A model generated the notes under the pieces. That model ran no database searches and had not been told where the DNA came from. It saw nothing but the letters and a program-made list of their open reading frames with translations. This document shows positions 43,160 to 48,163 of a stretch of DNA of 64,000 bases, one piece after another. Source of the stretch: an uncultured Clostridia bacterium. GTDB taxonomy: Bacteria > Bacillota > Clostridia > Christensenellales > Aristaeellaceae. The position numbers were made by a program, and so were the translations under genes. The stretch's first letter is position 1; the number at the start of each line of letters is the position of its first letter. Location: assembly GCA_947165425.1 (NCBI GenBank), contig CAMVAJ010000005.1:1-64000 (forward strand), in the 5' to 3' direction.

Positions 43160-46100
43160 ATGGCAGACCAGGATAAAATGAAAGAGCGCCATGATGCCCC
43201 AGAAAAATCCCTTGTGGATAAGGTGATCGATTTAGCCCTCGGCGCGGGCGGCGGCGCGGTGACGCTGCTCTCCGGCCTGCTGGCCGCGGTGCTGATCCTC
43301 TATTCCGGCTATGTGCTCTACGACACCTTCGCCACCGAGCGGGCCGCCTCCTCCAACGCCTGGGATCTTTTGCAGTTCAAGCCCGAGATCTTCGACGACT
43401 ACGAGACGCCCCTCTCCGGCTCCGAGCTGTCGGATATCAACCGCGACTACCGCTGCTGGCTGACGGTCTACGGCACCGCCATCGACTATCCCGTCGTCCA
43501 GGGCCCCAACGACACGTACTACGCCGCCGTGGATATCTACGGCCGCCCCAGCCTGACCGGCGCGATCTATCTCGCCGCCGGCAACAGCGCGGATCTCTCC
43601 GACTCCTACAACGTCATCTACGGCCACCACATGGACAGCGGCGCGATGTTCGGCGGGCTCGATCGCATGACCGGCAATGAGACCGGCGTGATCATCGCCC
43701 CGGACGCCATCTACGACGTGCAGTTCTTCGCCAGGATCGACACGGACGCCTACGAGAGCCGCATCTACAGCGTCGGCAACCGCAAGGACGACGTCCTCGC
43801 CTTCCTCCGCTCCGGCGGCGCGGGCGGCGTCGGCCTCGGCACAGAGGTCCGCTATTTCGACGAGGAGGCGGCCGCCGACGCCACGAAGCTCGTGGCCCTC
43901 TCCACCTGCGCCAACGCCAACACCAGCGGGCGCCTTGTCGTCATCGGCAAGATGACCAAGCGCATCGTGATGAAGGATGTCACCGTCTCCAAGGTCTGGG
44001 ACGACGCCGAAAACCAGGACGGCCTGCGGCCCTCCTCCGTCATCGTCGTCGCCAGCGACGGCACCGAGGCGACCCTCACGGCAGAGGACAACTGGACCGC
44101 CACCGTCTCCGTCCGCAAGTTCGACGACCTGGGCGAGATCCAGTATACCTGGACCGAGAAGAAGCGCGTCGAAGGCTATGAGATGGTCTCCAGCGTGACC
44201 AAGGGCGACAATACCGTCATCACCAACCGGCACATCCCCGCCGTCACAGATCTCACCATCCGGAAGGCATGGGACGACGGCGGAAACCGCGACGCTCTCC
44301 GCACCGACGCCGTGACGGTTCGCCTCTCCGACGGCCACACCGCGACGCTGAGCGCGGCCAACAATTGGTCCGCCACCTTCGAGAACCTGCCCGTCTTCGC
44401 GGACGGTCAGAGGATCGCCTACACCTGGACGGAGGAGAACGTCCCCGCCGGGTACACCCCGAGCTATGCAGCCAACGGCGACACCACGACCCTCACCAAC
44501 ACCCATACGCCCGAGACCGTCTCGCTCACGGTCGCCAAGCTATGGGAGGACAACGCCGACCAGGATGGCCTCCGCCCGGAGCGCCTCGAGGTCTCCCTCT
44601 ACGGCAACGGCACGCTTGTCGGCTCCGTGATGCTGGAGGAGTCGAACAACTGGAGCGGCACGATCCCCGGCCTCTATGTCTTTGAGAAGGGCCAGCGCAT
44701 CGCCTATGAATGGCGCGAGGCCTCGGTCCCCGGCTACACCCTGACCACCGCCACAAACGGCTCCGAGACCATCCTCACGAACACCCATGTGCCTCTGACC
44801 CGGGACCTCACCGTTTCCAAGGTCTGGGACGACAACAACAATCAGGACGGCATCCGGCCCCACCGCCTGCGCGTGACACTGAGCAACGGCCGCAGCGTCA
44901 TGCTCTCTGACGCCGAGGGCTGGACCGCCACGATCCCCGACATGCCGGTCTACGCCGCCGGTGAGCCGATCGCCTACAGCTGGACCGAGGACGACGTCAA
45001 CGGCTATGAGCTGGACGGCACCGTCGTCAACGGCGACACCACCACCCTGACCAACCGCCACGAGACGGACACCACCGTCGCCACGGTCACCAAGGTCTGG
45101 GAGGACGACGCCAACCGGGACGGTCTGCGGCCCGCCTCCGTCATTGCGACGCTGAGCAATGGCCAGACCGTCACCCTCAGCGAAGAGAACGGCTGGACAG
45201 CCATCATCACAGGCCTGCCCGCCTACCAAAATGGCGAGCGGATCGTCTACACCTGGGCCGAGCAGGATGTCCCCGCCGGCTACACCGCCACCCAGCAAGT
45301 CAGCGGCAGCGCCACCGAGCTGATCAACACCCACGCCATCGAAACCATCTCCCTGACCGTTCAGAAGGTCTGGGAGGACGCAAACAATCAGGACGGCATC
45401 CGCCCGGACGAGGTCGCGGTGACCCTGCTCAAGGATGGCGAACCCCTGCGCTCCCTCACCCTGGACAAGGCGTCCGGCTGGACCGCCACGGTCCCGGATC
45501 TCCCGGTGAACGAGGATGGCAAAGCCATCGATTACACCTGGACGGAGGAGAACGTCCCCGCCGGCTATACGCTGCATGTGAACAAGGAGAACGCCTCCTC
45601 AACGATCCTCACCAACACCCACGCGCCGGCCACCACCGCGCTGACCATCCGCAAGGTGTGGGAGGACGACAACAACCGCGACGGCCTCCGGCCCGACTCC
45701 GTCACCGCCAAGCTGTCCGACGGTCAAACCGTCACCCTGAGCGAAGCCAACCACTGGACGGCGACCCTTGAGAATCTGCCCGTCTACGCGGGCGGCAAGC
45801 CCATCGTCTACACCTGGACGGAGGAGAACGTCCCAGAGGGGTATTCCTTCTCCACCTCCCCCGCGCCGGACAATGACTTGGTCACCATCCTCACCAACGC
45901 CCACGAACCCGCCACCACCTCCCAGACGGTTCAGAAGATCTGGGATGACGGCGACAACCGCGACCGTCTCCGCCCGACCACGCTGCGCGTGCGTCTCCTG
46001 GCGGACGGAGCCGTCCAGCAAGAGCTGACGCTGAACAGCGTCAACGGCTGGTCCGCCACCGTGTCCGATCTCCCCGTGAACAACGGCGGACAGCCCATCG

Positions 46101-48163: not shown

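Follow-up and report, generated by a model that had tools for sequence, protein, structure and literature searches.

A sortase that runs on, in its own reading frame, into a long array of Cna_B modules raises the question of what such an enzyme does with a stalk and how both are held on the cell. The ORF lies in the window analyzed here, i.e., the whole stretch of 64,000 nucleotides, and its parts are as follows:

43160..48163, + strand: fused ORF of 1667 aa, TM helix, class B sortase, 14 Cna_B, MucBP and tail (uninterrupted frame, profile searches)
43244..43321, + strand: N-terminal TM helix, residues ~29-54 of the fused ORF (hydropathy)
43421..43957, + strand: class B sortase domain, residues 88-266, with His156/157, Cys250 and Arg258 (profiles, alignment, fold match)
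43970..47875, + strand: 14 tandem Cna_B domains, residues 271-~1570, Lys/Glu/Asn triads intact (Pfam, repeat alignment)
47885..48085, + strand: MucBP-like domain (assigned via homologues, the window ORF itself having no Pfam match)
48098..48160, + strand: conserved C-terminal tail EEPETPLGLGQVFINIGDCLE (comparison with homologues)

The fused ORF and its domains

The preliminary description of this locus had claimed a sortase fused without a stop to 14 Cna_B repeats, and the fusion is indeed real, with a single frame of 1667 codons. The N-terminal TM helix and the sortase His, Cys and Arg that it had reported were confirmed by hydropathy, by alignment to Spy0129 and by conservation in 63 homologues. 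The Cna_B array reached 771 bits over 14 stretches in Pfam, and its closest solved sequence was the Staphylococcus aureus Cna B-repeat 1d2p (E=6e-64). As had been proposed for each module, the Lys (K-x-W), Glu (W-x-E) and Asn (TN/IN) are kept, by sequence, in 14 of 14 repeats, the Asn of repeat 14 being located in the stretch printed after the alignment. These intact triads suggest that isopeptide bonds may form in the 14 repeats. Pfam matches to TOBE_2 and Myosin_N within the repeats were taken as chance. Because the repeats have diverged, with a DNA identity of at most 70% (median 60%), a collapse of the array during assembly is unlikely. The MucBP-like end is also present, as judged from homologues rather than from its own Pfam score. 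The preliminary description overlooked the conserved C-terminal tail and the next gene, which encodes an SBP_bac_5-type binding protein.

The sortase domain and its relatives

The Pfam Sortase model PF04203 matched residues 102-265 with 27.5 bits, just exceeding its cut-off of 26.6, and the best NCBIfam model was that of class B sortases, TIGR03064 (E=2.6e-26; 92 bits, under the equivalog cut-off of 153.75). By sequence, the nearest solved sortase was 3psq, the structure of Spy0129, which is the class B enzyme of S. pyogenes pilus assembly, and all top matches of a Foldseek search with the short homologue P0071 were class B enzymes, 3psq being ranked first. His156/157, Cys250 and Arg258 of the window ORF align with His126/127, Cys221 and Arg229 of Spy0129 (PMC3019223). 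Among the long homologues, His156, Cys250 and Arg258 are invariant (63/63) and His157 is kept in 62 of 63. These features point to a class B sortase with predicted transpeptidase activity.

Homologues were searched with the sortase domain alone as query, proteins being limited to 917-2917 aa. This gave 27 further sortase + Cna_B proteins, with sortase-region identities of up to 83%; in 25 the C-terminus is the same tail. Fused homologues carry 3-21 Cna_B repeats and share the junction 'STC..N.NTSGRLVVIGKMTKR..MKD.TV.KVWDD..NQDG.RP'. The source is a draft genome of 126 contigs, which could favor a frameshift or an assembly join between two genes. However, the seamless junction recurs together with the tail in at least 25 close homologues from other assemblies, and the tail forms make up a supported clade in the sortase-domain tree. 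Such an artefact is ruled out by the homologues with the same junction, and we give it a negligible probability.

The segment between sortase and tail is variable in close relatives, consisting of 1-2 MucBP, MBG-type domains, or 2-21 Cna_B. More distant relatives have C-terminal TM helices, mostly three (about 50 of the 80 named loci), or no extension (L075, L077). In the tree, all tail forms fall into one clade (support 98/88) nested inside the TM forms. The architecture is not a one-off: C-terminal extensions characterize a large family of class B pilus sortases, of which the fusion represents one form. Few database names exist for these homologues, namely 'Cna B-type domain-containing protein', 'sortase' and 'class B sortase'. 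The TM-type group (L016-L082) includes many class B pilus sortases of Lachnospiraceae and Oscillospiraceae that have additional domains, TM helices at the C-terminus (three as a rule) and a conserved segment 'LIDKWTPLM...RYR'.

In the source genome, which is 97.8% complete, two sortases were found; since both are class B-like, no housekeeping class A enzyme was seen there. The second one (C74, L001 1453-3507) has a long Pro/Thr/Glu-rich linker ahead of its catalytic domain and adjoins a Cna_B protein with an LPXTG-type anchor.

The pilus operon

Three genes precede the fused ORF:

33674..40387, + strand: giant pilus tip or ancillary surface protein, 2237 aa, with a C-terminal PPVAPTS, a hydrophobic stretch and RGRK
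40752..42137, + strand: major pilin, 461 aa, sorting signal ISPTGVVMRVAPY (TIGR03065, QVPTGV-type, below cut-off)
42241..43074, + strand: SipA-like pseudo-signal peptidase, S26 fold, catalytic Ser->Asp and Lys->Cys (profiles; precedent PMC4049620)

The motifs ISPTG in the pilin and VAPTS in the tip protein are each followed by a hydrophobic stretch and a basic end. This organization was compared with 80 homologous loci of Clostridia genomes, mostly ruminant-gut MAGs. An S26-type (SipA-like) gene lies upstream of the sortase in 78 of the 80, and ahead of it stands usually an ISPTG...APY pilin and often a giant protein with V/P-APTG/S. In these SipA-like proteins, Asp replaces the catalytic Ser in 76/80 and the Lys is absent in 79/80. 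The same Ser->Asp replacement is known from S. pyogenes SipA, which is non-catalytic, yet essential for pilus assembly (PMC4049620; review PMC7900414). Judged by its gene content, the window operon is an FCT-like class B pilus operon, and the pilus role first proposed is upheld by the pilin, tip protein and SipA-like genes. No separate LPXTG base pilin (FctB-like) was found adjoining the window operon.

Some further observations concern these neighborhoods. Within the giant tip-protein gene, the GC content of positions 36001-38000 is 0.43 against about 0.6 around, which suggests a foreign or fast-evolving stretch. An integrase-like gene (tyrosine recombinase-like by eye) lies directly 3' of the pilus operon in L075 (11401-12834) and L077 (11368-12846), hinting at mobility in Lachnoclostridium. 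Elsewhere in the window, positions 56013-61871 (- strand) encode a 1952-aa protein with many short Tyr/Asp/Gly-rich tandem repeats, adjoined by a gene (54936-55994) that appears LytR-CpsA-Psr-like by eye.

The C-terminal tail and its partner gene

No part of the extension is more conserved than the tail, with the consensus PLGL-x6-N-x-G-D-C-x-E-COOH. Almost every close relative, whatever its length, ends in an acidic linker, TPLGL, about six residues and N/Q-x-G-D/I/V-C-x-E, and a GxCxE/D ending was found in 96 of the best 120 short homologues (up to 466 aa). Across homologues the tail is constant and the stalk ranges from 0 to 21 Cna_B. In the AlphaFold2 model of the minimal homologue P0071, sortase and MucBP were predicted confidently and the tail (residues 450-463) had a pLDDT <50, as would be expected of a partner-requiring segment, which is also compatible with other roles. 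A lid function of the tail over its own active site was rejected, as this model gives no sign of docking and the range of stalk lengths also disfavors it.

The gene directly following the fused ORF is:

48274..50190, + strand: tail-partner SBP_bac_5-type binding protein, 638 aa, signal peptide without lipobox

This protein belongs to PF00496 (E=4e-40), its nearest solved relatives bind peptides or nickel, and no ABC transporter genes are adjacent to it in the window. An SBP_bac_5-type gene stands directly 3' of 16 of the 17 tail-type sortases with sufficient downstream sequence, its predicted start overlapping the sortase gene in two of the 16, and after none of the 45 sortases of non-tail types (Fisher p=6e-14, a value that takes no account of the common clade of the tail forms). 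Since the tail-type sortases form a single clade, this linkage does not amount to many independent events. Searches with the tail-module profile and the SBP were extended to 121 genomes of the family to which the source genome belongs. An SBP lay downstream on the same strand in 58 of the 70 tail matches reaching the tail end (window pair included), and 28 of the 29 closest SBPs were preceded by a tail protein. Gly at -5 is present in all 58 pairs, Cys at -3 in 53 and the terminal Glu in 46. Such a pairing suggests a contact between the tail and the binding protein.

Two more specific links between the partners did not hold. A disulfide between the tail Cys and an SBP Cys was discarded, covariation being weak (p=0.03) and SBPs without a tail neighbor often carrying Cys too. 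The idea that an SBP without lipobox needs the tail was weakened as well, given that Lgt and LspA homologues are present in the source genome and that two of its other SBPs (L123, L127) have signal peptides without lipobox, one of them beside ABC-transporter genes. Because of these two proteins, the missing lipobox counts as weak evidence. Two further tail + SBP pairs without a visible sortase occur in the source genome. On C14 (L121 1373-10599), a Cna_B protein of >2269 aa, cut by the contig end, has the tail ...INHVGDCFD and is followed by an SBP; on C30 (L122 1435-8265), an MBG/MucBP protein of 1609 aa with the tail ...SVNLGEAIE is likewise followed by an SBP. On C18 (L124), a Cna_B-containing open frame of 6361 codons or more runs off the contig end and may continue on C14.

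Fused and separate forms of the same module

Among the 58 tail-SBP pairs, 35 had enough upstream sequence to judge the sortase context. Sortase and tail are in one ORF in nine of them (eight plus the window), and in 11 a separate sortase gene stands immediately 5' of a separate tail gene, itself followed by the SBP. According to the best-matching query sortase, these separate enzymes are six class B (L295, L297, L311, L318, L332, L336) and five class C (L298, L303, L326, L330, L337). The gene order, from the pilin via S26, sortase and tail protein to the SBP, is that of the fused form. The remaining 15 informative pairs have no sortase nearby, which implies that the tail + SBP module is not pilus-specific.

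The separate tail proteins often begin with a signal peptide and pilin-like domains, either FctA/Spy0128-like (L249/L336, L295, L311, L318, L326) or SpaH/EbpB-like (L212/L298). The L311 protein (450 aa) has an FctA-like pilin domain behind its signal peptide, and its gene follows that of a separate class B sortase. From residue 161 to its end it matches the C-terminal 291 residues of the window ORF (47% identity, E=2e-74), a segment comprising two Cna_B, MucBP and the tail. After the sortases without extension (L075/L077), the next gene encodes an FctA-like protein ending in a PKTGD sorting signal, which is by these features an ordinary base pilin; similar PLTGD proteins occupy the slot after the sortase in L050/L062. 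A homologue of the window tip protein in L227 (53% over 740 aa) ends in MucBP and the tail, not in VAPTS, so that tail and sorting signal are interchangeable. Taken together, this swap and the base-pilin slot of L075/L077 place the tail where a sorting signal stands and the window extension where a base pilin stands. The window extension is thus best read, from these comparisons, as a putative pilus-base (anchor) subunit fused to the sortase, its tail replacing an LPXTG-type signal.

The same data bear on two other readings. The protein could be an enzyme-adhesin, i.e., an ordinary sortase whose extension merely projects the MucBP end and a docked SBP to catch mucin, peptides or sugars. This would fit the MucBP-like end, the ligands of the nearest solved SBP relatives and a Cna_B number that varies from 0 to 21 with a constant tail. 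However, it leaves unexplained why the module occurs by itself in the slot of the base pilin, behind class B as well as class C sortases, and why tail and sorting signal swap on one tip protein, and we regard it as improbable. The fusion could also be translational only, sortase and stalk being cut apart after export and acting separately. Indeed, separate genes perform the same job in relatives, but the fusion junction is short, conserved and without a recognizable linker, which makes such processing very unlikely.

A proposed model of an enzyme-anchor

Our preferred reading is the base-subunit one: the ORF would be the pilus sortase of an FCT-like operon fused in frame to the base or anchor subunit that is separate in relatives, with the tail held by the SBP. 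We consider this rather probable. Judged by homology and operon context, the sortase domain would join the ISPTG pilin and the VAPTS tip protein with the help of the SipA-like protein. The Cna_B/MucBP stalk, with its observed triads, would form an isopeptide-locked rod across the wall, and the GDCxE tail, with its observed gene pairing, would be gripped by the co-encoded SBP_bac_5-like protein. Tail and SBP would then replace the LPXTG signal and the housekeeping sortase by which the base of the streptococcal pilus is fixed, and the growing pilus would remain with an enzyme-anchor whose N-terminus is in the membrane and whose C-terminus is tethered by the tail complex. The 'built-in scaffold for the growing pilus' of the preliminary description comes close to this reading, which the comparison favors; the tail and the SBP gene, which are the decisive features, were missing from it, as was the match to a separate protein.

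In a stronger form of the same model, the sortase would be its own substrate, moving the finished pilus onto a lysine of the Cna_B stalk, its own or that of a neighbor. This is in line with the S. pyogenes base pilin, which is covalently built into the pilus and stops polymerization (PMC7900414), and with the correspondence of the window extension to a base subunit. Against a covalent pilus-stalk bond, the fused forms are without the FctA-like domain of the separate base subunits, the putative carrier of the pilus-accepting lysine, and no acceptor lysine could be singled out in the stalk. A covalent pilus-stalk linkage is conceivable, and the self-substrate form is, in our view, rather unlikely.

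More generally, GDCxE tail and SBP_bac_5-like protein could be a sortase- and LPXTG-independent holder of surface proteins and pilus bases in a lineage of gut Clostridia, which in the window would be fused to the pilus sortase itself, a single polypeptide then serving as polymerase, stalk and base. We put this forward tentatively.

Comparison with known systems

Class B pilus sortase, Cna_B, MucBP and SBP_bac_5 are all known kinds. In open-access papers, with subscription journals and preprints mostly outside this scope, no description was found of a sortase + Cna_B fusion in one enzyme, of the tail or of the tail-SBP pairing, and the earlier remark that no characterized example was known holds within that literature. 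The tail and SBP stand a fair chance of being a new surface-anchoring system. To our knowledge, the termination and anchoring of sortase-built pili are known only for a few LPXTG/SrtA systems. The present family appears as a large and hitherto undescribed branch among uncultured gut Clostridia, in which polymerase and base would be one protein and the role of the LPXTG signal seems to be taken by a conserved tail with its paired binding-protein gene. That tail proteins nearly always lie beside a dedicated binding-protein gene suggests an as yet undescribed mode of retaining pili and adhesins at the cell surface. Should the tail-SBP contact be real, this would be a new attachment principle and a ready-made orthogonal display tag.

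The S. pyogenes FCT-2/3/4 operon (SrtC/Spy0129, SipA, FctA, Cpa, FctB; PMC7900414, PMC3019223, PMC4049620) has several features in common with the window: the pilus sortase is of class B and has a His-His pair, SipA is catalytically dead (Ser->Asp), and both a tip protein and a pilin with an xxPTG signal are encoded. However, S. pyogenes SrtC is compact, without extension, whereas the window sortase carries 14 Cna_B, MucBP and the tail. Likewise, in S. pyogenes a protein of its own, FctB, serves as base pilin and is attached through its LPXTG signal by SrtA, whereas neither an LPXTG base gene nor a class A sortase was found for the window system.

Class C pilus sortases, e.g., S. pneumoniae SrtC1, resemble the window enzyme in assembling pili and in being more than a bare catalytic domain, but what they add to that domain is a lid and a TM segment at the C-terminus. 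We know of no class C pilus sortase with a Cna_B stalk. The C-terminal 3-TM forms of many relatives are topologically nearer to class C sortases. The stalk itself is comparable to the S. aureus Cna B-repeats (1d2p), both being tandem Cna_B, although Cna is an LPXTG-anchored collagen adhesin and not an enzyme fusion. Finally, the window partner and the OppA/NikA-type solute-binding proteins (SBP_bac_5) are of the same family, PF00496, but the window partner has no adjoining ABC transporter and is instead genetically tied to tail-bearing surface proteins.
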